Shown here: positions 3,882 through 60,976 of the stretch, piece by piece
Layout of the letters: each line of letters begins with the position of its first letter
How positions within the stretch are numbered: the first letter of the stretch is position 1
Origin: Neoarius graeffei
Lineage: Eukaryota; Chordata; Actinopteri; Siluriformes; Ariidae
Reading direction: 5' to 3'
NCBI RefSeq assembly: GCF_027579695.1
Contig: NC_083571.1
Coordinates: 73,078,279 to 73,142,278 of the forward strand
Length of the DNA: 64,000 nucleotides
Made by a program: the position numbers and the translations under genes
The notes under the pieces: model-generated
What the model saw: the letters and a program-made list of their open reading frames with translations, nothing else
What the model was told of the DNA's origin: nothing
The model's database searches: none

Positions 3882-4685
3882 CAAGCTAGCTAATGTCAAC
3901 AACAGTAGCTAGTATGTTACTGTAGCAATATTTACGTTCAGTCATTTGGATGACTGTTAAAACCTTTCAGTCTCAAGTTTTTCCTTTACTGGATTTACTA
4001 GTTTACTGAGCTAGCGCGCGATGGCTCCCGGCTCGGCCGGCGAGCGCGCGATGGCTCCCGGCTCGGCCGGCGAGCGCGCGATGGCTCCCGGCTCGGCCGG
4101 AGAGCGCGCCATGGCTCCCGGCTCGGCCGGAGAGCGCGCGATGGCTCCCGGCTCGGCCGGAGAGCGCGCCATGGCTCCCGGCTCGGCCGGAGAGCGCGCG
4201 ATGGCTCCCGGCTCGGCCGGAGAGCGCGCGATGGCTCCCGGCTCGGCCGGAGAGCGCGCGATGGCTCCCGGCTCGGCCGGAGAGCGCGCGATGGCTCCCG
4301 GCTCGGCCGGAGAGCGCGCGATGGCTCCCGGCTCGGCCGGAGAGCGCGCGATGGCTCCCGGCTCGGCCGGAGAGCGCGCGATGGCTCCCGGCTCGGCCGG
4401 AGAGCGCGCGATGGCTCCCGGCTCGGTCGGAGAGCGCGCGATGGCTCCCGGCCTGGCCGGAGAGCGCGCGATGGCTCCCGGCCTGGCCGGAGAGCGCGCG
4501 ATGGCTCCCGGCCTGGCCGGAGAGCGCGCGATGGCTCCCGGTTTGGCCGAGCGCGCTAGCTCAGTAAACTAGTAAATCCAGTAAAGGAAAAACTTGAGAC
4601 TGAAAGGTTTTAACAGTCATCCAAATGACTGAACGTAAATATTGCTACAGTAACATACCAGCTACGATGTTGTTGACATTAGCTA
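3882..4685. repeat. 136-bp inverted repeat enclosing a minisatellite
   Basis: The left arm 3882-4020 and right arm about 4549-4685 are near-perfect reverse complements. Both contain the blocks TAAAACCTTTCAGTCTCAAG and TTTACTAGTTTACTGAGCTA. The arms meet the tandem array directly, so the locus could form a long stem with the array as its loop. Confidence 0.92.
4021..4551 (+). repeat. 30-bp GC-rich minisatellite, 18 units
   Basis: Seventeen full 30-bp units and one shorter terminal unit, each beginning ATGGCTCCCGGC. Because 30 is divisible by three and no unit has a stop, the + strand reads as repeated MAPGSAGERA, ending at 4572. Variants are ordered: the first two units have GGCGAG where later ones have GGAGAG, and the last units have GGCCTG instead of GCTCGG. 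That gradient suggests growth by slippage or unequal exchange. No evidence that it is translated. Confidence 0.95.
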
Positions 4686-36433: not shown

Positions 36434-42684
<6,251 letters not shown>

Positions 42685-44109: not shown

Positions 44110-44894
44110 TGAGTTGTTACTATTTTGGTCAAATCTTATTAAAGTTTAATTTATATATTATAGTTCTCTGTATTTTTACATGAGCTTACAGAAGGAAAAC
44201 ACATTTGATACAATCCAATAATACTCTTCACTGTGACTATTTTAAGAAATTATAAACATTGTGTTATTTTCTGTGGGTCTCTGTATGTATACAATATTCA
44301 GGCATGAGATTTTTCAGCTCAAAATCTGATTTAAGACTTCCCTTTCATTATTATTATATTAAAATTCAAGACGAGTATTATTTCAGATTTTTCACTCTGA
44401 GCTCTCTCATGCCTGATACATGAATCCCATAACCTAGAGTAACTGATAGAACAATATCAACAATTCAAAAACTTTAATTGTATAAATTTCAAATGGTTTG
44501 CAATTAATTGGGATCCACTGTTTATCATTTCAACCGCGCATCATACCCTCATCCAATTGAAAATGTCGTTCACGCACTTTTCTCCCCATGAGAATTTTGA
44601 AAAGTTGATAAGTATGTGTTGGAATTTCTGTTTCCTTTTTTTTTTTTTAAATATAATATAGTATTTTTAATATAGCATTTTTGACAAAAGTGTCTCAATC
44701 ATTTTGACTGCTTATTTCACACTAACTGCAATATTTTATATCCAGCACACAGAGTTCGATCTGCTCACTGTGTTATTAGAAATACACAAAATACTGTGTG
44801 TCAAAATGTTGATTTGAAATGAAAAGTGATTCAGAATAATGATCTGATTCCCAAACTGCAGAAGTGGAGCTCAGATTAAAGCTGAATAAAGTCA

Positions 44895-45010
44895 CCTGAG
44901 TTGTGAAAATTCTGCTCTGAACATCACACAGGAATAAAACCCGACTTTTCTTCTGAGTTCATAAAAAGCTGAAACAAACTAAACGCTGTGAAGCAGGAAA
45001 CAACGGCCGG
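44895..45010 (-). promoter_or_regulatory. aptx: Candidate aptx non-coding first exon and promoter edge
   Basis: On the - strand, GC-rich CCCGGCCGTTGTTTCCTGCT is followed about 90 bases later by CACAACTCAG and then GTGACT, a usable splice donor. Its position 2.2 kb upstream of the start-codon exon fits the required 5' non-coding exon. Not supported by any transcript. The upstream part of this block belongs to the duplicated unit. Confidence 0.3.
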
Positions 45011-45133
45011 GTCCGACGACTTCTTCTGCTGCTTCAATGGCCAGCTTATATGGAGCATTACCGCCACCATCTGGACTGGAGTGTGAATCAGGCGTTTACA
45101 ACAACAACAAAAACCCTAAATTCTATTCATCAG

Positions 45134-45670
45134 TACGGAAGCCGAGAGAGGCCCGTCATATAATCCTTTTTTTATTCACCTTGTTATCCCGAGATAACGA
45201 CATAATTAATTCAGGATCTCGAGAAAAGAACACAACTAATTCGAGATCTCGAGAAAACAAAACCGTTATTTCATGATATCGAGTAAACAGCTGAGAAATG
45301 GTTCATTCAGGTGCGCCAAGAGACTTGTGATATGCTGACTTTGGGGCTATTTCTCATTCTGTATAGACGCAACTTTGGTCATTAGAATGTCTGGAATAAT
45401 CGATCACCTAATAAGGAAATATTTTGATCAGGGGTTGACACAGGGAGAGATTGCATTAAGTCTTTTAATAAGGGATAATTTCAAAATTTCTAAGTCTTCG
45501 TTGTCTGACCCACGGGGGGGCAGCTCTGCTAGAAATCTCAGCTGTTTTCTCGAGATCACGGAATAATTGTCTTGTTTTCTCGAGATCTCGAATTAATTAT
45601 GTCGTTATCTCGGGATAACAAGGTGAATAAAAAAAGATTATATGAAGGGCCTCTCTCGGCTTCCGTACTA
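45134..45670. mobile_element. MITE with long inverted repeats, private to copy A
   Basis: The arms include TACGGAAGCCGAGAGAGGCC and GGCCTCTCTCGGCTTCCGTA-like ends, plus the mirrored CACCTTGTTATCCCGAGATA. Copy B has the undisturbed target (ATTCATCAGTCCTG near 55297), which shows the insertion duplicated CATCAG or, if the TIR starts at CAG, CAT. The interior frame 45375-45566 begins MVIRMSGIIDHLIRKYFDQG and continues with a helix-turn-helix-like TQGEIALSLLIRDNFKIS, the likely N-terminus of the parent's transposase (IS3EU-like integrase is my guess). Confidence 0.8.
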
Positions 45671-45700
45671 CATCAGTCCTGTGTTTTTCAGGAAACTACA

Positions 45701-46939
45701 TCAGTGGTTGAAACAGACTTCTCCTGTGTTTAACTGTAGTATGCTCTGAAGACTGAGCTGGATTTGTTTTTCTTTTAGTTGGGCAATTAATCTTTGTCTC
45801 TCTAGGTGGTATTTAGGACACTGTATAAGTACATGCTCTATGGTCTCCTGGCTATCACTACACTCACAGGTCCCATCAACATGTTTCTTTATCATAAATA
45901 GTGTGCTGTATGACCAAAGCGCATCCTTGAAAATACATCCTCTTCTTGCTTGCTTCTGCCTGTATTCCTACCTCTTCCAACTTTGTTTTGGATATTATAA
46001 GAATGACGTCCAGTATGGGCGGCACGGTGATGTAGTGGTTAGCACTGTCGCCTCACAGCAAGAAGGTCCGGGTTCGAGCCCCGTGGCCGGCGAGGGCCTT
46101 TCTGTGTGGAGTTTGCATGTTCTCCCCGTGGGTTTCCTCCGGGTGCTCCGGTTTCCCCCACAGTCCAAAGACATGCAGATTAGGTTAACTGGTGGCTCTA
46201 AATTGACCGTAGGTGTAAATGTGAGTGTGAATGGTTGTCTGTGTCAGCCCTGGCGACTTGTCCAGGGTGTACCCCGCCTTTCGCCCGTAGTCAGCTGGGA
46301 TAGGCTCCAGCTTGCCTGCGACCCTATAGAACAGGATAAAGTGGCTACAGATAATGAGATGAGATGTCCAGTATGCCCAGTGTTCCAAAGGTGTTGCCAT
46401 TTGTCAGTGACTTTAGTTTTAACTATGCTTTTGATTTCTGCCTTGCTGTGTGTAATATAAATGTCTATAGTGGATTTCTTTGTTGCTTGCTGAGCAAATT
46501 TGTCTGCTATCTCATTTCCTCTTACACCTCTGTGAGTTGGCACCCATGGAAATGACAAATTGATTCCAGATCTGACCAGATTATTTCCCATTTGCATGAT
46601 TTCATATACAATGTCTTGCCTTGACTCAGACTGTCCATTTTTGAGGCTTGTTAGTGCTGAGCTTGAGTCAGATGCAATCACTACCTTGCTTGGTTTGTGA
46701 TCTTCCATCCAGTGTAATGCCAACCATATTGCTACTAGTTCTCCTGTATGTACTGCCAAATTGTTAGTTATTCTTTTTGCCACAGCAATTTTTTGTTCTG
46801 GAATGGCATACACCACTCCCACCTTTTGATCAGATCTTGATGCATCTGTGTACATCATAAGAGTGTCTTTATATTTTTCTCTTAAGTAACTAAATACTTT
46901 GATGTTGTCTAAGTCAGGATCACCCTGTTTCTCCTCCAA
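45701..46939 (-). pseudogene. LINE RNase H and C-terminal knuckle, copy A
   Basis: The RNase H domain shows the catalytic pattern: MMYTDASRSDQKVG (D), AVHTGELVAIWLAL (E), VVIASDSSSALTSL (D) and RGVRGNEIADKFAQ (D). It is followed by KVTDKWQHLWNTG, where a SINE interrupts. Past the SINE the frame resumes with MIKKHVDGTCECSDSQETIE, HVLIQCPKYHLERQR and ends at 45701. RNase H after RT is a feature of the I-group LINEs. RT is absent because of 5' truncation. Confidence 0.75.
46018..46365 (+). mobile_element. tRNA-derived SINE, copy 14 (in copy A)
   Basis: Perfect 10-bp flanking repeat GTCCAGTATG. A small deletion removes CCGTGTCCGCG in the body. It is inserted a few bases from the site used independently in copy B. 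Confidence 0.95.
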
Positions 46940-48088
46940 CAGTCCTAAATCAACGTTGAAGTCTATAATAAACCATGGAGGGATTACGGCCGGGCCCTAA
47001 ACACCGCCGTCTTCCTATAAATGCTCACTACACAGGGTGTCACTATGTAGTGAAGTGAGTGAAGAACATGATGGCATTCATAGACATATAAACAGACGCC
47101 GCATTGAGCTAGTGGCCCGTTGCTGGGATACGTCAGAGTGTCCGCCATATTGGATGTGGCAAATCTTCCCCGTAAACCAATGCAAGTAAATGGACAACTT
47201 CATAAAGCCCCTTTCTACAATAATATTTAACTCGATGCCTTTTATTCACCCATTAAGACACACACGTATATATTTGGGAAACAAACAGGCATCAAAACAA
47301 CATATATAATTTTTAATGTGATGGTTATAAATAGTGTGCCAAATACCCGTCAATATTCTGTGGGAGGTGTGACCTAAATTTCCTTAACATGCAGCAGGCC
47401 TATACCAGAATTAAGCTATCGGAAACTTGTTTTTTTTTTTTTTATTCCGCTGCTATCGTAGGCTACTAACGATATCTACACATCAAGGCATGTTTTGGAG
47501 CTCAGCGGGGATCGCGTAGAATAATGTGCTGTGCTTACACTGCTGAAGTCGTGCCGTCTCCGCATCACTTTCATTAAATGCCGTGCAGATAGGCTATAAA
47601 ATGTCCCCAAAAACAATTTTTGCAATATACAGTGCTATATGGAAAAAAATTCAATTAAACCATATTACAATGTATTTTCATTTTACCTGAGTATATGTCA
47701 AGCTGCTCTTTCAACTCTTCATTTATGATTTGTTTCTCCCCGAGATCCTCCAGAAGACCACTCGCAGTGTTCTTCGCCCTCCTTTCTCTGTCCTTTGCAT
47801 TCCTCCTCTCTTTTTCCAGACTCTCCACCCTATCCAAGGCTTCCCTGAGTCTGGCTCTCAGAACTTTATATGATAAAGGCAGAGCATAGGAGTGGTCCTA
47901 GTACAAACAAGGATGAAAACGTTATAAATCATGTTTATATTACATATATTACACCACTCAGTCACAGTCCGTAACATCTTTACTGGTACAACGTGCTGTC
48001 AAATGTCCCACATTCTTACACATTATTAGTCTATTAGTATTTAGTCCTGCTCCCAGTTAAATCCCTGAATGTGAGTGCTTTGGGTGAA

Positions 48089-48091
<3 letters not shown>

Positions 48092-48154
<63 letters not shown>
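48092..48154. repeat. (TG)n microsatellite
   Basis: About 31 TG units inside the P-like element, between exons 3 and 4. Confidence 0.95.
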
Positions 48155-48157
<3 letters not shown>

Positions 48158-49213
48158 ACATTTGTGTGTGAAGGATTCAGACTCAATACTGGCATGTTTC
48201 GATGTATACAGTGGCAGGGAGTGGGACAAGAGGACCAGACAAGAGGTTTAAATATAACCAGCTTACAGCTATTTGAGGCATGGCAAGCACTTAGTACTCA
48301 CAACACTGGGGACAGGGAGGGGTTCGGTCTCTTGAACAAGCTGGGAACAGTCCAGTGACAGGGTCTCCTGTGCCTTCTTTGAGGTCTGAGACGTCCTGGT
48401 AGCCACAGGCTAAAGTGAAGGATGAAATATACAAATTACCTCACAGTGTAAAACAAAGCCAGATCCAGATCTCAGTACATGGGCATCAATAGGCCTTATT
48501 TACTGGGGCAACTGGGCGAAATCATCTGTGCCCCAGTAAAAAATGTTTAGATTTTAGTAATAAATTAGTTTCTTTTCTGCCTAATTAAGATCAGCAGTAG
48601 GCTGTAGGAAAGATAGTATTTCTAACTTCTACCACCTCTACTTTCTAACTAATTTTCTGATTGGTCTGGGAGATTCTCACATTCTTACTGTAACTGTAAA
48701 TGTGTGTCCAGTTTAGTGCACGTGCACGATACTGGAGAGATGAGCTGTGGTAGCACGAAGTTTCTGCAACAAAAGTATACAACATTTTAACGAACCCATT
48801 ATCCTACATGGGCTAAAACAGTATGGAATGACTTCTCTAAATGGATATCAGGAAATTCTTCTCATGAAGCAGGGACAGGGAAACAAAGACAGAGGTAAGA
48901 TTATTGTTGTATATGCTAGTCGGCGATAACTATAACTACAGCCAGCTAATCAGGGTTCGTAATGTGTTAGAGTTGAGATGAGACATTTGAGCAAACAGAC
49001 TGGTCGCTCATATGTTCATACATGCAGCATCAGCATGCATTAAAACCCTAAATGCCAGCAATATTTTTTTGGGGGAAAGGGATGGTCTCTTCCTCTCGTT
49101 GACCTGTTCGTCCAGTAACCTCATTCACAGAAGAGTCCGCATTGCAATAATTAATATTGGCTAACGGTATCCAGACATCTATAAATGCCCAATACTCGTC
49201 ATAGTAGCCTATA

Positions 49214-50752
49214 CACTGTGTGCACAATTATTAGGCAAGTGAGTACTCTGACCCTACCATTATTTCTATGCATGTTTTCCAACCGCAAGCTAGATACACT
49301 TGAATGCTAATTGGATTTAAGCATTCTCAGGTGGTATTTATTTGTGTAATGAGGGAGGGTGTGACCTAAAGTCATTAATACCCTATATTAAGGTGTGCAT
49401 AATTATTAGGCAGCTTCTTTATCTCAGGCAAAATGGGCCAAAAAAGAGATATAACAGACACTGAAAAGACAAAAATTGTAAAATGCCTATCAGAGGGATG
49501 CAGCACTCTTGAAATAGCTAAGCTATAGAAATGTGAGCACAAAACAATCAAACGTTTTGTTGCAAATAGTCAACAGGGTCGCAAAAAATGTGTGGAGAAG
49601 AAAAGACACAAATTAACCGCAAAAGACTTGAGAAGGATTAAACATGAAGCTACCAGGAACCCATTATCCTCCAGTGCCACAATATTCTCGAACTGCAACC
49701 GACCTGGAGTGTCCAGAAGGACAAGGTGTTCGGTGCTCAGAGACATGGCCAAGGTAAGGAAGGCTGAAACACGACCACCACTAAACAAGACTCACAAGTT
49801 GAAATGTCAAGATTGGGCCAAGAAATATCTGAAGACAGATTTTCCAAAGGTTTTATGGACGGATGAAATGAGAGTGACTCTGGATAGACCAGATGGATGG
49901 GCCCGTAGCTGGATAACTAATGGACACAGGGCACTTTGACTCAGACACCAGCAAGGTGGTGGAGGGGTAATGGCATGGGCTGCTATTATTAAGGATGAGC
50001 TAGTTTGACCATTTCAGGTTGAAGATGGACTTAACATCAACTCCCAAACCTACTGCCAGTTTCTAAAAGATACATTCTTCAAGCAGTGGTATGGGAAGTC
50101 GTCTGCATCATTCAAGAAGGCCATGATTGTTATGCAGAACAATGCACCATCACATGCACCCAAGTACTCCACTGCTTGGCGAGCCCACAAAGGCCTTAAA
50201 GATGACAAAGTAATGACATGGCCCCCTTCCTCACCTGACTTAAACCCTATTGAGTACTTGTGGCCCCTTCTTAGATTTACAACGAGGGAAGACAATACAC
50301 CACTCTGAATAGCATTTGGGAGGCCATGGTTGCTCCTGCACAAAAAGTTGATCGTCAACAAATCAAAAAACTAACAGACTGGATGGAAGGCTCATGGCAG
50401 TTATTGAAAAGAAGGGTGGCTATATTGGTCACTGAATATTTTTGAAATGCTAGAAGTGTTTATTTGTTAATTCTGAGTTGTTTATTTGTTACACTGAAAA
50501 TTAAAATAAACAAGTGAGATGGGAAACTTTAAGCTTTTCATTTAGTTGCATAATAATTCTGCACACTAAATGTTGCCTAATAATTCTACACACTTGTATA
50601 TTCCCCTGAGAAGGCCTAAACTCCCCTTTCCTTTGTTAATCATTCTGGTTTTAGGTTTATTAACAATTTGGATTGACTGAGAGCACTGTATTTGTTCAAC
50701 GATAAAATTAATCATCAGGAATACAACTTGCCTAATAATTGTGCACACAGTG
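49214..50752 (+). mobile_element. Tc1-like transposon with IR/DR ends
   Basis: Ends are CACTGTGTGCACAATTATTA on both sides (inverted), with TA flanks at 49212-49213 and 50753-50754. A second related motif occurs about 190 bp inside each end (GTGTGCATAATTATTAGGCA at 49393 and TGCCTAATAATTCTACACAC reversed near 50573), the IR/DR arrangement of Sleeping Beauty-type elements. Confidence 0.9.
49434..50400 (+). pseudogene. Tc1-like transposase, decayed
   Basis: N-terminal helix-turn-helix MGQKRDITDTEKTKIVKCLS with a stop after EIAKL. The catalytic part includes FPKVLWTDEMRVTLDRPDGW (first Asp), MIVMQNNAPSHAPKYSTAW, and WPPSSPDLNPIEYLWPLL (third acidic residue, Glu). The second catalytic Asp, normally in QDNAPSH, is Asn here (QNNAPSH). 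Several in-frame stops (near 49527, 49938 and 50006) confirm loss of function. Confidence 0.85.
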
Positions 50753-50882
50753 TATTTATTTTCTATACAAACCTCGGAGCGAAGCAACAGTCATGCCAGT
50801 TTACGTTTATTACAGTCTTATGTATTTATTAATACAATCTTCTGACACCATGTATGTCCTTGGCTTAATGGGTACTTTTGTA

Positions 50883-50989
50883 TGGGGTGCCAAGTGTCAC
50901 CGGGCCCATTTCGTGATGGACGGAATGCATTTCGTGATGGACGGAATGCATTTCATCCACGAAATGGGCCAGTGACACTTGGCACCCCA
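50883..50989. mobile_element. 107-bp MULE-like fold-back MITE
   Basis: Ends TGGGGTGCCAAGTGTCAC and its reverse complement. Perfect 10-bp target duplication TACTTTTGTA at 50873-50882 and 50990-50999. The centre contains a tandem 21-bp duplication (CATTTCGTGATGGACGGAATG twice, counting overlap). The duplication length suits Mutator-like elements. Confidence 0.85.
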
Positions 50990-51199
50990 TACTTTTGTAG
51001 CCTTTGGTGGCGTTTTAAAGTCGCTTTCTAATTATGCTAGTCAGACTGACAAACACACCAGCGGCATCACTGTCAGCTGAAGCCCTATCAGCTGAAATGC
51101 CATTGGGGGCTTCACCCAGCCCCTGTACACTGCAAACTAGCGACAGATACGCGCTAGATAGCTCGGGTAAGCTAATCAGTCAGCATACCATAGCAAGCA

Positions 51200-52497
51200 C
51201 TGGCGCCATCTGCAGGGGGGGGGGGACCTTTTTGACCCCCCAAAGATAAAGTTGGAGGGGCAAAAACACCCCAATAATGAAACCTGAATTCATATTAACT
51301 GACGATTGAAACCAACCAAACAAATAATAGCCTAGCTTTGAATGCAAAATAAGTACGGTAATCTATAGAAACGTCACCTAAAATGTTATGATCGGACATG
51401 ACCCGCCCCCTTTTCCGCTTGCAATATTCCAATGGTTGGCAGTGAGTGATTGACAGGTTGCACTCCGCAAAATTTACACTGCGTAGCACTAGGCCTACGC
51501 GGCCCAGGCAAAAAATAAATAAATAAAAAATAAATAAATAAAATGGTTCGTTGCGTAGCAACCAAGGCAGCACTACTGAGGCGAAAAGTTCTGTGTGGCC
51601 TCCCGCAATCGTTTTCACTGAACAGTGAACATAGAAATGAAGCAAAATGGACAAGTGGATTATCCGAACCAATAGGCCGGCAGCCACCAGCAATGAAGGT
51701 GATCATGTTGTGCAGAATTTGGACACTGAAGTCTGTGTTAAAGCCGATGCGGATATATGAGTTTAACGCGCTTAAGCCTTTTTATGGAGTATGGTGCACG
51801 GTTTTTTTTTTGCACTATTCTTGTCAGTTGTCTGCCGAATTCATCTCATCTCATTATCTCTAGCCGCTTTATCCTGTTCTACAGGGTCGCAGGCAAGCTG
51901 GAGCCTATCCCAGCTGACTATGGGCGAAAGGCGGGGTACACCCTGGACAAGTCGCCAGGTCATCACAGGGCTGACACATAGACACAGACAACCATTCACA
52001 CTCACATTCACACCTACGGTCAATTTAGAGTCACCAGTTAACCTAACCTGCATGTCTTTGGACTGTGGGGGAAACCGGAGCACCCGGAGGAAACCCACGC
52101 GGACACGGGGAGAACATGCAAACTCCGCACAGAAAGGCCCTCGCCGGCCACGGGGCTTGAACCCGGACCTTCTTGCTGTGAGGCGACAGCGCTAACCACT
52201 ACACCACCGTGCCGCCTCTGCCGAATTCATCTCAAAGAAAATTGCATTAAACTAAATTTGTGTATTGAGTAAATTGTGTTTCATACAATGTTTAAAGTCG
52301 TGAGATTTTTTTTAATGCATCATAATAAGTTATCGTTAAAATGGGCGCTTCCCACTTGCAACGGTGAATAGTAATGAATGAAAATGACTTAGAACTGAGT
52401 CTTTGATATTCAACTACATACACTGCCGACGTCATGACGTCACGGTGCAAGAACATAATTCTGACCCCCCAATGTTGACATTAAGTTGGCGCCTATG
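51200..52497. mobile_element. Probable hAT-type element containing a SINE
   Basis: CTGGCGCCATCTGCAGGGGG at the left and, reverse-complemented, CATAGGCGCCAACTTAATGT at the right, each followed by a run of G/C next to TTTTTGACCCCC or CTGACCCCCC. Flanks AGCAAGCA and GGCAAGCT match at six of eight positions. Confidence 0.55.
51843..52216 (-). mobile_element. tRNA-derived SINE, copy 15
   Basis: Flanking repeat TCTGCCGAATTCATCTCA is 18 bp, though its last bases are also compatible with the SINE tail. Confidence 0.96.
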
Positions 52498-52721
52498 GGC
52501 AAGCTACCAAAACCTGAGGCCAAAATAACCAACCTACAAGACTGAATATGATAAATGATGGAAATAGTGGAAAAACTGGAAATAGTGAATGAAAATAAAA
52601 ATTTACTGTTTTATTTATTGAGTCACCACACAGACCTACTCTCGTTGAATAAAGTGAGCTGAATGACCGCCAAACTGAGTTCGGCCAGGTCCTAACGTCA
52701 TACCAAAACAAAATACATCAT

Positions 52722-54079
52722 AGGGTTGGGCGGTATCCAAATTTTGATACCTTTAAACCGTTTCTGTGTTTTCCCGGGGTATACGGTATTACCGAGAAAA
52801 AAATATTATTTTGTTTCGGCCTACTGTGTAACGTGCGCCTATACCGGCGGACCTTGTCCAGACCTGCGCCTATGCCTCAAATGTACTATTTAAAAGCAGC
52901 ATAGCGAATTATGTGCATTGTGGTATGGATTAAGCAGCAAAGCGAATTTTGTGCATTGATGAATGGATTAAGAGATATTTCAAAGCATCACGCAACTCTT
53001 CCTTCATCTTGAAAATAGCATTCAACTGTCGTTTACACATGTCTGCGTTGAAACGCCATTTGCAGCACTATTTCACCTACTCCATCAAAAAAAAGTACAC
53101 GATGAGCAGGATCATACCCTTTCAAGCATGGGAAATAAAAAAAAGAAAAGAAAAAGAATCAACCAACACCCAAGTCCGTTTAGACTGCGCGATAAACCAT
53201 ATTCTTCAGCGCAAATGAGGCGAACCTAATTCAAATGCGTGATAGCTGCACAAGGTAAAATCATATGGGCCCACGTCATGCCATGGCGGGGAAATTAATA
53301 ATCAAATGGCCTTACCTTGCTTAAAACGTTGTCTTGATCACATAACTCCTTACAATTATTCCACTTAAATCCATACGGTTTAACACACCCAACAAAGATA
53401 GCAAGTGCATTGCTAATTCCCACCAGAAACCTAACAGTTTACGCTACGATGTTTTCTTCCGTTTCTTCAGTAGATGACATTTCAAACGTTTATTACCCAC
53501 ATCTCAAATGTCATACGTTATATTATTTTACCTTGTTGTTACTCATGTAACCTACTCAAAACACAACTCATTGGAGAGATCTCGTGGAAGTGGAGTACCC
53601 CAGGCTATGGTGTGCCTTAGGGGACATATTAGATTTTTTTCGATTTTGCGCGGTCATTTACATTATTGCTGGCTCTTCCTTTTCGTTTGGTTTGAAACCA
53701 AAATACTGCCACACTGCCGATGTTGTATTTTTTTTTTGCCACTAACTCGTTATCTTGACTTGCCATCTTTCAACCGCGGTCTCAGTCTCTTGCGAAGCTT
53801 TCTGTCAGACTCCAAATGTCACGCAGGGTTGCCATGGTAACGACATAAACAACCCTGCACGCGATGAGAACTTCTTTAGGAAATTGATAGAATTAGTGAA
53901 AATACGATCACACAGTTATTCGGGATGATCTTCAATTTATTATTTTATATTATGACCTCATGTACTCCATATTTATTTAGATATTATATATTTTTTTTAA
54001 ATGACGGTAATGAGACCGATACCGTTGGTACTTTTGGATATCTCGGGATACCTTCTTACCGTAATACCGCCCAACCCTA
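52722..54079. mobile_element. hAT-type element in the P-like intron
   Basis: Ends TAGGGTTGGGCGGTAT and its reverse complement ATACCGCCCAACCCTA. A perfect 8-bp duplication ATACATCA lies at 52714-52721 and 54080-54087. The interior shows no transposase. Confidence 0.85.
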
Positions 54080-54832
54080 ATACATCACTGATTCCTTCAC
54101 ATTCAGAAAGGTTAAAAACATTCATCATACGTTCAAAAACGTTCATCATAGTGTGGCACTGTATTATCTAATTCTCCCTGCTTATAACTATAAACCTACC
54201 CGGTGGAGATGAGCTGGGAAACTGAAGACTGAAGGAACAGCTCCTTCTCTGATCCTGACTGTCTGACCTGTTCTGTCAAAATCCTCCGTTCTGAAGTGTT
54301 CACTGCAGAGCATGGATGACGGAGTAGCAGAAAACCCTTCCCGTCGCACAGCTGTCTCCCACTGCTTTTTCATGTCTTTATTTTTGGGAAACCTACATAG
54401 TATGTGAAAAGTTAGCAAAGCAACTAACAACAATCAGCGTAGTTACGAAGGAAATACTTCGTTGTTTGGAGACAGGTTTCACCGAGCAGCTATTATGCGC
54501 GAGACTTCATATTAGCTACAAAGTCAGAAAAATCTGTTCGTAAAATTACATTATAATGACCAAATACAATGAAAAGTATTTTTCCAGTCTCACCTGTGAA
54601 AGGTAATCCCATGTGATCTCGTTTGGACGGTAAACCTGTTGGTACAGTTAAACGCAGTACATGAATGAGGCATCTTTATTCTCCGCTACTGTCTACAGAG
54701 ACGGTTGAAGAATCTCCACTTTGCCACATCCAATATGGCGGCGAGGATGACGTATGATTCTACGCAGAAGGCGGCTATGTTTATGTCTATGAACTAAACG
54801 CTGTGAAGCAGGAAACAACGGCCGGGTCCGAC

Positions 54833-54937
54833 TTCTTCTTCTTCTGATTAATGGCATTTCACAATATTTAATTGTATATCGCCACCTACTGTATAGGAGT
54901 GTGTGAGTTGGTCAGGTCAAGTCTTCGGCATGATAGG

Positions 54938-54999
<62 letters not shown>

Positions 55000-55186
55000 G
55001 AATTAGGAAAGTGTAAGGAACTAAATTCTTCCCATTAGTCTAGTGTCTGTCAGATATGTCATAAGGGCTTTAATACTCTTTCCCTGCATTCCCTCCTCTT
55101 TCAGAATGTTATGAATGTCTCCTTCTTTACCTACTTGTTCTAACCATTTTTCCCTATGATAACTTGACATTCAAACAGCTGGGTCC
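54833..55186 (-). mobile_element. LINE 3' tail private to copy B
   Basis: Bounded by GGGTCCGACTTCTTCTTCT on both sides; copy A has the single, empty version. The sequence ATATCGCCACCTACTGTATA next to a CTTCTTCTTCTGATTAATGG end resembles I-group LINE tails. A (TA)n microsatellite occupies 54941-54997. Confidence 0.75.
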
Positions 55187-55636
55187 GACTTCTTCTTCTG
55201 CTTTAATGGCCAGCTTATATGGAGCATTACCGCCACCATCTGGACTGGAGTGTGAGTCAGGCGTTTGCAACAACAACAAAAACCCTAAATTATATTCATC
55301 AGTCCTGTGTTTTTCAGGAAACTACATCAGTGGTTGAAACAGACTTCTCCTGTGTTTAACTGTAGTATGCTCTGAAGACTGAGCTGGATTTGTTTTTCCT
55401 TTAGTTGGGCAATTAATCTTTGTCTCTCTAGGTGGTATTTAGGACACTGTATAAGTACATGCTCTATGGTCTCCTGGCTATCACTACACTCACAGGTCCC
55501 ATCAACATGTTTCTTTATCATAAATAGTGTGCTGTATGACCAAAGCACATCCTTGAAAATACATCCTCTTCTTGCTTGCTTCTGCCTGTATTCCTACCTC
55601 TTCCAACTTTGTTTTGGATATTATAAGAATGATGTC

Positions 55637-56004
55637 TGGGGCAGCATGGTGGTGTAGTGGTTAGCGCTGTCGCCTCACAGCAAGAAGGTCTGGGTTCGAG
55701 CCTGTGGCCGGCGAGGGCCTTTCTGTGCGGAGTTTGCATATTCTCCCTGTGTCCGCGTGGGTTTCCTCCGGGTGCTCCGGTTTCCCCCACAGTCCAAAGA
55801 CATGCAGGTTAGGTCAACTGGTGACTCTAAATTGACCGTAGGTGTGAATGGTTGTCTGTGTCTATGTGTCAGCCCTGTGATGACCTGGCGACTTGTCCAG
55901 GGTGTACCCCGCCTTTCGCCCGTAGTCAGCTGGGATAGGCTCCAGCTTGCCTGCGACCCTGTAGAACAGGATAAAGTGGCTAGAGATAATGAGATGAGAT
56001 GAAT
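55637..56004 (+). mobile_element. tRNA-derived SINE, copy 16 (in copy B)
   Basis: Flanked by AATGATGTC at 55628-55636 and 56005-56013. Different flanking repeat and different internal changes from the SINE at the near-equivalent site in copy A. Confidence 0.94.
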
Positions 56005-56253
56005 AATGATGTCCAGTATGCCCAGTGTTCCAAAGGTGTTGCCATTTGTCAGTGACTTTAGTTTTAACTATGCTTTTGATTTCTGCCTTGCTGTGTGTAA
56101 TATAAATGTCTATAGTGGATTTCTTTGTTGCTTGCTGAGCAAATTTGTCTGCTACCTCATTTCCTCTTAAACCTCTGTGAGCTGGCACCCATGGAAATGA
56201 CAAATTGATTCCAGATGTGACCAGATTATTTCCCATTTGCATGATTTCATATA

Positions 56254-56630
56254 GGGCGGCACGGTGGTGTAGTGGTTAGCGCTGTCGCCTCACAGCAAGA
56301 AGGTCCTGGGTTTGAGCCCCGGGGCCAGCGAGGGCCTTTCTGTGTGGAGTTTGCATGTTCTCCCCGTGTCCGCGTGGGTTTCCTCCGGGTGCTCCGGTTT
56401 CCCCCACAGTCCAAAGACATGCAGGTTAGGTTAACTGGTGACTCTAAATTGACCGTAGGTGTGAATGTGAGTGTGAATGGTTGTCTGTGTCTATGTGTCA
56501 GCCCTGTGATGACCTGGCGACTTGTCCAGGGTGTACCCCGCCTTTCGCCCATAGTCAGCTGGAATAGGCTCCAGCTTGCCTGCGACCCTGTAGAAGGATA
56601 AAGCGGCTAGAGATAATGAGATGAGATGAG
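56254..56630 (+). mobile_element. tRNA-derived SINE, copy 17 (in copy B)
   Basis: Perfect 13-bp flanking repeat ATGATTTCATATA. It interrupts the RNase H code; copy A is uninterrupted at this point. Confidence 0.96.
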
Positions 56631-58114
56631 ATGATTTCATATACAATGTCTTGCCTTGACTCAGACTGTCCATTTTTGAGGCTTGTTAGTGCTGAGCTTG
56701 AGTCAGATGCAATCACTACCTTGCTTGGTTTGTGATCTTCCACCCAGTGTAATGCCAACCATATTGCTACTAATTCTTCTGTATATACTGCCAAATTGTT
56801 AGTTATTATTTTTGCCACAGCAATTTTTTGTTCTGGAATGGCATACACCACTCCAACCTTTTGATCAGATCTTGATGCATCTGTGTACATCATAAGAGTG
56901 TCTTTATATTTTTCTCTTAAGTAAATAAATACTTTGATGTTGTCTAAGTCAGGGTCACCCTGTTTCTCCTCCAACAGTCCTAGATCAACGTTGAGGTCTA
57001 TAATAAACCATGGAGGGATTACAACAGGTGTTCTGATAAACTGTCCTACACGTCAATGCGTCCTACAAAGCCCCACTGCGCATGCGCAGAGCACAAAACG
57101 TCATTTCTTGGCATTTGAACAGATTTTTGTCCTACATCAGCTGTGCTATAAACGGTGCAGATTAACAGCGTGCATTCAATCTTTGCTACTTAATCTAACA
57201 TGCTGATTTCTAACCATTGTGTGAGTCTTGCAATACATCTGAAATATCTCCCTGAAATATCGCTGTGTGTGTGTGAGCCTGGTGCGCTGTGTGTGCCATT
57301 TGAGACATCCAAAATGTAATCAGTTTTTGTAATCAGTTTTGTAAGATTTGGTGTAAATCCGTAAACCTGTTCAAAACAAATAGTTGGCCATCTTGAAGTG
57401 TTCCAGTAAAATGAAATCATTCAAAATTAGTTGTGGAAGTTTGTTTTCTGTGTGCTGTTGTGTCGCCAGACAAGGAGAACGGCTGGATGAATAGGAGAAA
57501 GGTAAAACTCAGTTATTTAACTCGAGTGGAGGTGGAGAAAATGAGTTTAATTCCAGAAATGGTGGACTGACACTTTAAGTGGAATGTTATGCTTCTCTGG
57601 GTTGGATGTGTTAAATGAAAGTAAGCTTTTAAAAAAGTTATTGACTGAATGAAAACTGTATTGATGCTCCAATATATTGTTATGCCGTTTTATGTCTTGC
57701 AATAAAAATATCATAACATTTAATTACATTACATTGTGTAAGGGAGACATTAATTGTTCAAGTTGCTGATACTTACAAACTATAAGTAAGGTGTAGATTC
57801 TACAAGTAAACCTTACAATCAGGAATTAGGTACCCATTACACAGCTGAAAGTAAGAGAAACCCATTTAACACCAGTAAACACAACTTTGCTCCAAGTAAC
57901 CTTTACTAGCTGGTATGAAGTAAACATTACTAGTTGGTTTTAAGCAACCTCAACATTCAAGTTCCAAGTAAGGATAACAAATATTTTCAGTGGAGATTAC
58001 TTTTAAAAGTAAAGATAACTTGAAAGAGAACAAGTTATATTACTTCATTTATTTGAGGCAACGAGTTTCCACCCTTTTTTCAAGTAAACTTAACTTATTC
58101 TTTTTTACAGTGAG

Positions 58115-58830
58115 TATAGTATATTCTGGTGGGGTCATTCGAATTGTCAAAACTTCCTACATTCATATGTTAATATAAAGGCATATTCTGATGGTCATTG
58201 AGTTGTCAGAAAGTCCTGCATTCATATATTAAAGTAAAAGAATATTCTGACGAGGTTGTTTGAACTGTCAGAACATCCTACACTCCTATTTTAATGTAGA
58301 AGCATATGTCAGAACACCCTACATTCATATATTGTAAACACATATTCCGATGGTCATTTGAATAGTCAGAACGTCCTACTTACTGTAGAAGCATATTCTG
58401 ACGTGGTCATATGAGTTGTGAGAACGTCCTGCGGCGTCATTTGAATTGTAAGAACGTCCTACACTCATATTTTAATGTAGAAGCATATTCTGAAGGGGTC
58501 TTTTGAATTGTCAGAACATCCTACATTCATTTATTAATGTAGAAGCATATTCTGATGGGGTCATATGAGTTGTGAGAATGTCCTGTGGCGTCATTTGAAT
58601 AACGTCCTACACTCATTTTAATAGAGCAAATGGTACTTGTGAATAGTGACAAAAAAAAACCCTATTAATTCTACATATTCTGACAGGGTCAATTGAAGAG
58701 TCAGAGCGTCCTAGATTCATATGAATGTAAAAGCATATTCTGACGGAGCCGTTTGAATTTTCAGAATGTCCTACATTCATGTGAATTCTGACAGGGTTGG
58801 TGGACATTGTATCAATGTAGAAGCATGTTC
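58115..58830. repeat. Degenerate tandem array, period about 65-90 bp
   Basis: Eight to ten units combining GCATATTCTGACGGGGTCAT, TTTGAATTGTCAGAACGTCC and TACATTCATATnTTAATGTA, with variable length and local deletions. The phrase GTCAGAACnTCCTACA resembles the end of the surrounding element. Confidence 0.85.
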
Positions 58831-58862
58831 TTTGCAGAGGGAAAAACCGCGAACTATGACTG

Positions 58863-59785
58863 AGGCTACATCCACATGACAACGGCAACGAGATTTTTTT
58901 TTTTTAAATATCGCGTCCACATGGGCAACGGATCAGTAAAATATCAGGTTCATATGGCAACGCAACGCTTGCTGAAAACGATGCAATACACATGCCACAC
59001 CTCTACGTGCGCTGTAAGATGGTCCCATCGGAGACACCAGAACAATAGAAGTAGATGCATGCGCATAACTGCGCATGCGCACAGTGACTGTCACTGTCAC
59101 ACGCACACACTTTCTCACTCCCTATCCTATGGATATAGTCCCTTTAAATCACGTGCTCATTTTTTGAATGGAGACGCGGAAAGAGGAATGAATGGGGGTA
59201 GATGGAAGCCGGTACGCCAACATTCTGATATCCTCCAGAATTCTTTAATGGTCCGGAATAAATTGAATGCTACAAGTTGATGGATTACCTTGTTCTTCTA
59301 TGCCCTTTTGGAGGAATGTATTGTCGGACTTAAACCAACATCTGAAGAGGTGAGATCGCTCCTTTTTTTTCCCTATTTTCACTGGCGGGATTGACTCTGC
59401 CCTAAGGGCTATTCTCTCACTCTCTCTCTCTCTCTTTCTTTCTCTCACTTTGCACCATTACACAATAAATATTCACAGTGAAAATATTTTGTAAGCGCGT
59501 TTCATGAACCAAGTTATAGGATTTGTTGACAACTCGCATCGAGTTCGTTACACTTCTACCCGGCGTGAAGCACATGTGGTTGTGACGTCATCGTAAACAA
59601 ATCCGTTCTACTCATCCAGACGACTTCGCAACGGCTCCGTTGCCAGATTTTTTCACTCTGGAACCCGTTCTCAAAAGATTTCGTTTTGGGGCCCCCAAAA
59701 CGCCGGTGCCGTGTGGATGCCAGGCCGAAACGATAAACAATTTTATCAGATTCACCTGAATCCGTTGCCATGTGGACAGGGCCTA
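58863..59785. mobile_element. MITE-like element
   Basis: Left end GAGGCTACATCCACATGACA and right end (reverse complement) TAGGCCCTGTCCACATGGCA share TCCACATGNCAACGG. A TC microsatellite at 59416-59450 is inside. No gene is visible. Confidence 0.6.
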
Positions 59786-60976
59786 AAAGTTAAAGTTGAA
59801 TCACACTGTAGGATTTCCTGCAATGTAGGACTGCTCGACAGACATGTCTGACATCCCCTCCTACCGTAGGATGCTTCGCGGATGTAGGACCGTTTATCAG
59901 AACACCGGGCCCTAAACACCGCCCTCTTCCTATAAAAGCTCACTACACAGGGTGTCACTATGTAGTGAAGTGAGTGAAGAACATGATGGCATTTGGAAGT
60001 TAACCAATGTGAAGTAAAGGCATGTTTCACTTCCAGTTGAGTTAAGGGTCTAGATTTCAAAATACATGTTGAATTTACCTCAGTGAAATTAATTTACTAA
60101 AGAGCTTAGATCCAATTATTGATGAGACCCAGTCTGGATTTATGAGAAGGAGACATATCTCCAATAATATCTGGCTTGTTTTAGACGTAATCAGTTATTT
60201 ATTCTTGTGTCCTGATGACAGTCTCATCTTCTTCCTGAACTTCTATAAAGCCTTTGATACTATAGAACATAACTTTATATTTCACACAATTAAACATTTT
60301 GGATTTGGTGAATATTTTTGCAAAGCTGTTAAAACTATGTATTCCAAAGGTAACAGCTGCATCAGACTAAAAAATGGGACTTCTCTGAGATTTGAATTAC
60401 AGCGAGGTGTCCGGTAGGGCTGCCCTGCATATCCCTATTTATTCATTCTATGCACACAACTACTTTCCATCCATATTAAAAATAGCCCATTAAAAGGTAT
60501 CTTCATCGCAGATCGAGAAATTATAATTAGCCAGCTGGCAGACGATACTACATTATTCTTAAAAGATGCTACCCAAGTTCCCATTGCTATCCAAACAACA
60601 GATATATTCTCTGCAGCTTCTGGACTCTGCTTAAACCTGAAGAAATGTGAGCTATTTCCTCTTAAAGACTGTGACACTCCCCACATCTGCAACATACTGT
60701 ACCAATCAAAGACAAGCTCCGTTATGTCGGGATTACCATTGTGAGAAATCAGGTAGATAGATGCTCTGAAAACTTAAATTTAATTATTGATAAGACAAGG
60801 AAAAAAAACTTAACCAATGGCTTCAGAGAGATTTATCCTTGAAAGGACGAATATTACTGACAGAGGTAGAAGGATTATCCCGTCTTACATATACAGCTAC
60901 CCGCCTGTCTGTCAGCAAGCAGCTCTGTAATGCCATTGATAAGTTACTGCTTAATTTTATTTGGGAAAACAAGATA

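Follow-up and report, generated by a model that had tools for sequence, protein, structure and literature searches.

Gray and Preston reportedly described hybrid element insertion by P elements of Drosophila in 1996. The outcome is a tandem duplication of flanking DNA in which a single P element occupies the seam and the target sites are exchanged; these Drosophila cases arose in the laboratory, in flies that carried an active source. Galileo, also from Drosophila, belongs to the P superfamily, and Sleeping Beauty, as used in mouse, is an engineered Tc1-type transposon. The Galileo study reports exchanged target duplications at inversion breakpoints, with 7-bp duplications and chimeric elements, and states for these inversions that aberrant transposition and ectopic recombination leave the same structure (PMC2775673). 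In maize, Ac/Ds and dhAT elements produce duplications by reversed-ends transposition (PMC3744419). Zebrafish Pdre elements are P-type, with terminal inverted repeats (TIRs) starting with CATA, 8-bp target duplications and many internally deleted copies (PMC10983969), and a paper that contains the term alternative transposition concerns Sleeping Beauty rearrangements from engineered concatemers in mouse (PMC1584263). Judged by titles and the beginnings of abstracts, no vertebrate P-element case appeared in the literature searched, a body of work that leaves most subscription papers outside its coverage.

The window analyzed here, a stretch of 64,000 nucleotides from Neoarius graeffei, contains, in this order, a copy A (44977-47078, plus strand), a P-type transposon (47079-54791) and a copy B (54792-59993, plus strand), with the two direct copies abutting the element flush at both ends. 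The ends of the element were set by those of its relatives. In a search with 46990-47200 as the query, 39 other matches were scored from 1233 first-look candidates; 29 of them start at query positions 89-90, corresponding to 47078-47079, and the starts of the remaining ones fall within 83-93; at the right end, 38 of 39 other scored matches (from 401 candidates) end at 54791-54792 and one at 54788. The element therefore spans 47079-54791, and its flanking 8-mers are ATGGCATT and AACTAAAC. The initial annotation had recognized this succession of copy, P-like element and copy, and the comparison of A and B at the breakpoints that it called for confirms that both copies are flush with the element, with their edges set by the family ends; only its exact ends were off by 1-2 bp. 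Likewise, it had correctly described the flanking 8-mers as unlike each other and as recurring at the outer end of the other copy, but read them as GATGGCAT and CTAAACGC, the same sites displaced by 1-2 bases. Its suggestion that the duplicated block may include the aptx upstream region sits poorly with the distances, as the aprataxin exon (37566-37949, minus strand) is located outside the duplication, ~7 kb from copy A.

The 8-mers to the left (ATGGCATT, 47071-47078, plus strand) and right (AACTAAAC, 54792-54799, plus strand) of the element agree at 2 of 8 positions, and each recurs, in matching context, at the opposite copy's far edge. At the start of copy A (44977-44984, plus strand), AACTAAAC stands without a footprint and probably represents the pre-insertion target site; ATGGCATT, which would be the second target site, stands without a footprint at the far end of copy B (59986-59993, plus strand). 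It occurs once more, apparently by chance, at 54851-54858, within a fragment inserted in copy B. With this exception, the locus bears the signature of a hybrid insertion, that is, an element lying exactly between two directly repeated copies, and each 8-mer single at the opposite far edge. Inspection of the outer edges, 44977 and 59993, revealed no element, extra 8-mer or footprint, and for this reason the source chromosome of copy A carried no P element at its left edge under either of the two mechanisms considered below. A target motif derived from 19 distinct 8-mers of 25 family loci is low in information: AACTAAAC scores at the 89th and ATGGCATT at the 86th percentile, and several genuine target sites do not exceed the average score. 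Reversed-ends transposition was considered as well and rejected, given that there is no outer element with a matching target duplication at 44977.

The element at the seam (7713 bp, coding on the minus strand) is non-autonomous and harbors nested insertions. Its P-type identity, proposed from the outset, is supported by the 8-bp duplications of its family, by the transposase domains of a related copy, C4, and by its terminal and subterminal inverted repeats, both of which are present as in the P superfamily. The left (47079-47100, plus strand) and right (54770-54791, minus strand) terminal repeats, the latter shortened by small deletions compared to its relatives, lie within a 24-nt pair (47077-47100/54770-54793) that is 83% complementary, and the 36-nt subterminal repeat (47128-47163, plus strand) is 86% complementary to 54720-54755. 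The element has kept a THAP-domain exon (54188-54433, minus strand; PF05485, 2.8e-12) and, by eye, the remnant of a coiled-coil-like exon (47655-47897, minus strand; no Pfam match above cut-off), whose counterpart adjoins the P-type HTH in C4. The transposase core of C4 is absent at an internal deletion junction (47672-47673, unstranded), and unlike C4, the window copy encodes no P-type transposase domains. Nested within it are a Tc1-like element (49211-50755, plus strand) with 30-bp perfect inverted repeats and a DDE_3 match, a further stretch (51199-52498) that includes a SINE (51841-52216, minus strand) and is absent from loci L030, L035 and L040, and an element (52721-54079, unstranded) with 16-bp perfect inverted repeats and ATACATCA on both sides, which is absent from these three loci and from L044.

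The family itself behaves as expected for the P superfamily. Its left end gave 1375 first-look candidates, and all 40 that were scored matched. At the other two-ended loci, the flanks agree at 6-8 of 8 positions in 20 of 21 cases and at 5 of 8 in one, in keeping with the 8-bp target duplication of the superfamily; the deviating value of the window copy is explained by the duplication. C4 (5.6 kb) encodes P-type transposase domains in three open frames (PF12017, 9.1e-13; PF21787, 2.7e-46; PF21788, 1.5e-23), and the domains typical of P-superfamily transposases (THAP, P-type HTH, RNase H-like and GTP-binding insertion) are found within the family. The flanks of C4 agree at 5 of 8 positions, which is no clear target duplication, and no flanking duplication is found within 748 bp to its left and 4.7 kb to its right; a poor flank match alone is therefore no proof of such an event. 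None of the other two-ended loci has flush direct flank copies within ~0.5-2 kb to the left and 0.5-8.5 kb to the right (L011 has no left flank), and at L012 and L023, the left flank matches distant DNA on the right (148 bp at 90-93%) that does not adjoin the element. In a segment-wise comparison within the one assembly, none of the family copies compared comes out throughout as the closest relative of just one half of the seam element.

The ancestral duplicated unit measures ~1.2 kb and consists mostly of an old LINE fragment (45701-46987 in copy A, minus strand), with an RNase H frame (46244-46996; PF00075, 1.1e-13) and a second frame (45701-45967) whose zf-RVT match is below cut-off. The LINE target duplication is seen as GGCCGGGTCC (45005-45014, plus strand) and GGCCGGGCCC (46988-46997), which match at 9 of 10 positions. 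As the fragment is found in both copies, its insertion must be older than the duplication. The copies are unequal in length (2.1 kb for A, 5.2 kb for B) because each took up insertions. Copy A has gained a 538-bp MITE with long inverted repeats (45132-45669, unstranded), which is absent from B, and a SINE (46017-46362, plus strand) bordered by GACGTCCAGTAT and GATGTCCAGTAT. Copy B carries a SINE at nearly the same place (55639-56004, plus strand) with different flanking repeats (AATGATGTC at 55628-55636 and 56005-56013), and it alone has a fragment that resembles a LINE tail by eye (54833-55180, minus strand; GGGTCCGAC at both sides), a second SINE (56254-56630, plus strand; ATGATTTCATATA on either side) and a 2.9-kb insert (57027-59906, unstranded) with inverted-repeat ends GGTGTTCTGATAAAC.

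Apart from these later insertions, A and B differ at 24 of 1209 aligned bases (2.0%, or ~1.0% per copy; the two aligned blocks overlap by 13 bases). This matches the 6 to 9 unshared substitutions in 633 end bases (0.9-1.4%) by which the element departs from the majority of its relatives, so that it need not be much older than the duplication. In genome searches, a 240-bp query from the left flank had two matches, its own position and the initial 41 bp of copy B. A 193-bp query from the right flank matched its own position and the final 89 bp of copy A; besides these, its first 30-49 bases, which form the end of another transposon, gave 17 short matches. The duplicated edges and the outer flanks have no other match in the 38 contigs, a uniqueness that is not absolute, since the searches omit very common words.

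Given the unlike and exchanged 8-mers, the normal duplications of the family, the edges unique to this place and the existence of a transposase-coding copy, the duplication was most likely made through the transposon's own ends. We consider hybrid element insertion of the P-type element the best explanation, with a probability of roughly 0.5. A non-autonomous P-type element would have inserted at AACTAAAC on one chromosome and, while this insertion was still recent and presumably polymorphic, a P-type transposase would have paired the left end of the element on one chromatid with the right end of the element on another. The hybrid ends would then have been joined at ATGGCATT, ~1.2 kb rightward, on a chromosome whose AACTAAAC site was free of P, and this single aberrant transposition would have resulted in the order unit, ATGGCATT, P, AACTAAAC, unit. 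That the two sites were joined by the transposase, and not by homologous recombination of one P insertion with another, is our inference. That a vertebrate P-type transposase thereby performed a germ-line event, and that the heritable tandem duplication is a natural fossil of the rearrangement known from Drosophila, is a claim to which we assign odds just short of even. It speaks for hybrid element insertion that just one P insertion is required and that P elements favor nearby targets (PMC7776569). The range given there for this preference, ~50-150 kb, is far wider than 1.2 kb and counts against it, as do the weakness of the target motif, the poor flank match of C4 and the identical junctions predicted by recombination between two P insertions. 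Of the initial interpretation, the P identity, the exchanged 8-mers and the duplication via the ends have held up; such a structure can result from two mechanisms, of which hybrid element insertion is one.

The other mechanism, non-allelic homologous recombination, is a serious contender that we nevertheless hold to be somewhat improbable. Here, a crossover inside P, between an element at ATGGCATT on one homolog and one of the same orientation at AACTAAAC on the other, would yield the duplication and a reciprocal deletion; a local P hop followed by unequal sister-chromatid exchange is a variant of this. The predicted outcome is this very structure, with its outer edges clean, and by our own reasoning, the same-structure argument would carry over from the Galileo inversions to duplications. 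The family looks abundant, judging from the 1375 candidates and the 40/40 scored matches, and both the preference of P for local targets (PMC7776569) and a Galileo inversion ascribed to ectopic recombination on the basis of chimeric elements (PMC2775673) have been described. However, two insertions are needed, in the same orientation, ~1.2 kb apart, polymorphic and on different homologs, and if all 1375 candidates are real, chance alone would be expected to place ~0.5 pair of equal orientation at so short a distance in 2.34 Gb. An assembly switch, in which two real haplotypes with P at a different site in each were fused inside P, would result in the same structure, but is improbable: a divergence of 2.0% plus six insertions (two in A, four in B) in a 1.2-kb unit is seemingly too much for ordinary alleles, and the 38 contigs hold no further copy of either flank. 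Even less credit is due to a tandem duplication of other origin with P later inserting exactly at its seam, for which the general abundance of P is the sole argument; an 8-bp duplication would be expected, whereas the flanks agree at 2/8 positions, compared to 6-8 in 20/21 relatives and 5 in the other, and a base-exact targeting of the seam is improbable. Finally, although a LINE fragment makes up most of the unit, the idea that A and B represent a dispersed repeat instead of a local duplication is rejected by the genome searches, and its probability is negligible, as neither the edges outside the LINE, 41 bp and 89 bp long, nor the outer flanks match elsewhere.

The mechanism is a known one, and the locus is a clean vertebrate example. 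A transposon that merely lies near a duplication is weak evidence for having caused it; at this locus, each target site can be read at base resolution, the edges are unique in the searches, and the genome itself provides the measured norm of the family. Should most of the 1375 left-end candidates be real, a systematic search for this signature becomes possible, and the relative contributions of aberrant transposition and ectopic recombination in a vertebrate could be counted.

As with Sleeping Beauty in mouse, the rearrangement would have been caused by a transposon in a vertebrate. The element resembles zebrafish Pdre in being P-type, in the CATA start of its TIR, in its 8-bp target duplications and in its many internally deleted copies; Pdre2 has 13-bp TIRs, CATACCTGTCAAC, whereas the relatives in this family start with CATAGACATATAAACATAGACG. 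The locus shares with maize Ac/Ds and dhAT direct duplications that are precisely bounded by the transposon and the 8-bp logic, but in the maize cases described, an outer element with its normal target duplication remains at the first repeat, and here the outer edge has none. Galileo offers a P-superfamily element and exchanged target duplications at breakpoints, in inversions with two elements rather than in a duplication with one. The Drosophila hybrid insertions differ in that the fish locus is a fossil, deduced from one assembly and with the reciprocal product unseen; in its tandem duplication, its single P element at the seam and its exchanged target sites, the locus is like them.

The window corresponds to C3:73078279–73142278, and its positions 44977–59993 contain a short stretch of DNA that is present twice in direct orientation, as copy A (44977–47078) and copy B (54792–59993), with a 7713-bp P-type transposon (47079–54791) in between. 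We base the bounds of this transposon on its relatives in the assembly searched (2.34 Gb, 38 contigs), whose left starts and right stops cluster at these positions. With 46990–47200 as the query and the best 40 of 1233 candidates scored, the window itself among them, 29 of the 39 non-window matches have their first base at query positions 89–90, the others at 83–93, i.e. at or beside 47079; the first bases of the relatives are CATAGACATA. At the other end, where 39 non-window matches were scored of 401 candidates, 38 end at 54791–54792, and the remaining one ends at 54788.

The transposon carries inverted repeats, both terminal and subterminal, as well as a THAP exon (PF05485, 2.8e-12). Its ends, together with the parts 47671–48441, 52659–52720 and 54079–54791, are common to a 5.6-kb copy on another contig (C4:112643348–112648906), which has three open frames and codes for a P-type HTH (PF12017), an RNase H-like domain (PF21787) and a GTP-binding insertion (PF21788). 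Among the best 40 of 288 candidates scored, this copy is also the only one besides the window to cover the internal stretch 48160–48444. The window copy lacks the transposase core (deletion junction 47672/47673) and is non-autonomous, its length being inflated by nested elements. In this genome, the P-type HTH domain has 17 matches, including long open frames at C2:127803205 and C18:26850143 (805 and 828 aa), which are possibly intact transposase or THAP9 genes.

The duplicated unit measures about 1.2 kb and consists of a LINE fragment set between edge DNA of 41 bp on the left and 89 bp on the right. In the LINE fragment, which is bordered by GGCCGGG(T/C)CC, there is an RNase H frame, and zf-RVT gives a weak match; the fragment is older than the duplication, since it is present in both copies. 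When aligned, the copies have common blocks at both outer edges and internally, interrupted by insertions private to A (a MITE and a SINE) or to B (a fragment resembling a LINE tail, two SINEs and a 2.9-kb element with inverted-repeat ends), which we read as postdating the duplication. The SINEs at 46017–46362 (A) and 55639–56004 (B) lie a few bases from the same site, with differing flanking repeats, and seem to be two independent insertions, though one old insertion that was later altered is conceivable. In genome searches that pass over very common words, so that absence is not absolute, 44780–45019 was found in two places, the query itself and the first 41 bp of copy B, and 59880–60072 matched itself, the last 89 bp of copy A and 17 short stretches limited to the query's first 30–49 bases, the end of B's 2.9-kb insert (all raised candidates scored, 2/2 and 19/19). 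The initial annotation had considered that the block may include the aptx upstream region, but the aprataxin exon (37566–37949) falls outside the duplication, and we claim no effect on this gene. About 1.4 kb from the exon lies a second THAP-domain reading frame (39329–39559, plus strand; PF05485, 1.5e-5), and 4013–4556 is taken up by a GC-rich tandem repeat of a 30-bp unit (18 copies, 97% matches).

A fresh insertion of such an element duplicates one 8-mer. Among the fetched family loci, which were chosen from the best-scoring matches, 20 distinct loci have both ends and both flanks, and their flanking 8-mers match at 8/8 positions in 11 cases, 7/8 in six and 6/8 in three; the C4 copy (L044, L045), additional to these, matches at only 5/8. 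Excluded from the count were L008 and L015 (right end out of reach), L031–L043 (right ends only) and L001 and L029 (the window itself). Nine of the 20 loci share one site within another inverted-repeat element (GGCTACATCCACAC ... GTGTGGACAGGGCC), eight by alignment (L012, L017, L018, L019, L020, L023, L024, L028) and L004 by its flanks, and the 20 therefore represent 12 independent insertions; the shared site seems to reflect a single P insertion multiplied by a different transposon. Likewise, the flank ACTTCACGGTTGGC in 11 of the 13 right-end loci L031–L043 (seven identical, four variants) suggests a second carrier repeat.

In the window, the 8-mers left (ATGGCATT) and right (AACTAAAC) of the element are identical at 2/8 positions. 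AACTAAAC recurs at the start of copy A (44977–44984) and ATGGCATT at the end of copy B (59986–59993); the initial annotation had the right sites, but its exact bases were shifted by 1–2. One further ATGGCATT in the region, at 54851–54858 within the fragment exclusive to copy B, is taken as a chance occurrence. Inspection of the outer edges of both copies revealed no element, no second 8-mer and no footprint.

This arrangement would arise if the P ends were joined to two sites 1.2 kb from each other, the left end to the first and the right end to the second: on a recipient chromosome without P at the first site, this would leave two different 8-mers, each of which recurs at the block's opposite edge. 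In hybrid element insertion, the ends on two chromatids are used jointly and one inserted element is enough, whereas ectopic recombination takes place between two insertions that lie on different homologs. We favor hybrid element insertion, at a probability of about 0.5, for two reasons: a single insertion suffices where the alternative takes two, and P elements have a preference for targets close by, over a range that one study puts at 50–150 kb (PMC7776569). Ectopic recombination could have produced the same structure and is a tenable, if less probable, origin, as it requires a pair of polymorphic insertions in the same orientation, carried by different homologs at sites separated by 1.2 kb. 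An assembler haplotype switch inside the transposon, in the one assembly used, would mimic the structure as well, but the 2% divergence of A and B and six insertion differences within the 1.2-kb unit speak against it.

Both mechanisms need a P insertion that is not clearly older than the duplication, because the copy-A chromosome was still without P. Between the copies, 1209 aligned bases, 13 of which enter the count twice, contain 24 differences, or about 1.0% per copy. Counted against the majority of relatives, themselves best-scoring matches, the element carries 5 substitutions in 320 bases of its left end region, none shared with 20 copies, 4 in 234 of its right end region, where some of 29 copies have three of the same changes, and, depending on the alignment, 0–3 in 79 of a third end-region stretch (32 copies). 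Set against the A/B divergence, this load indicates an insertion not clearly older than the duplication.

We also checked the element for chimerism by comparing ten segments with the fetched copies, which do not include the parental ones: the nearest copy mismatches by 0–3.5% per segment, and none of the fetched copies is consistently nearest on one side across the ten. A 2-bp gap in the window's left repeat is common to L022 only, whose right end is unlike the window's, which is too little to build on. For the inversions associated with Galileo, one study describes the outcomes of the two mechanisms as strikingly similar, with element chimerism telling them apart (PMC2775673); by our own reasoning, this argument should apply to duplications, too.
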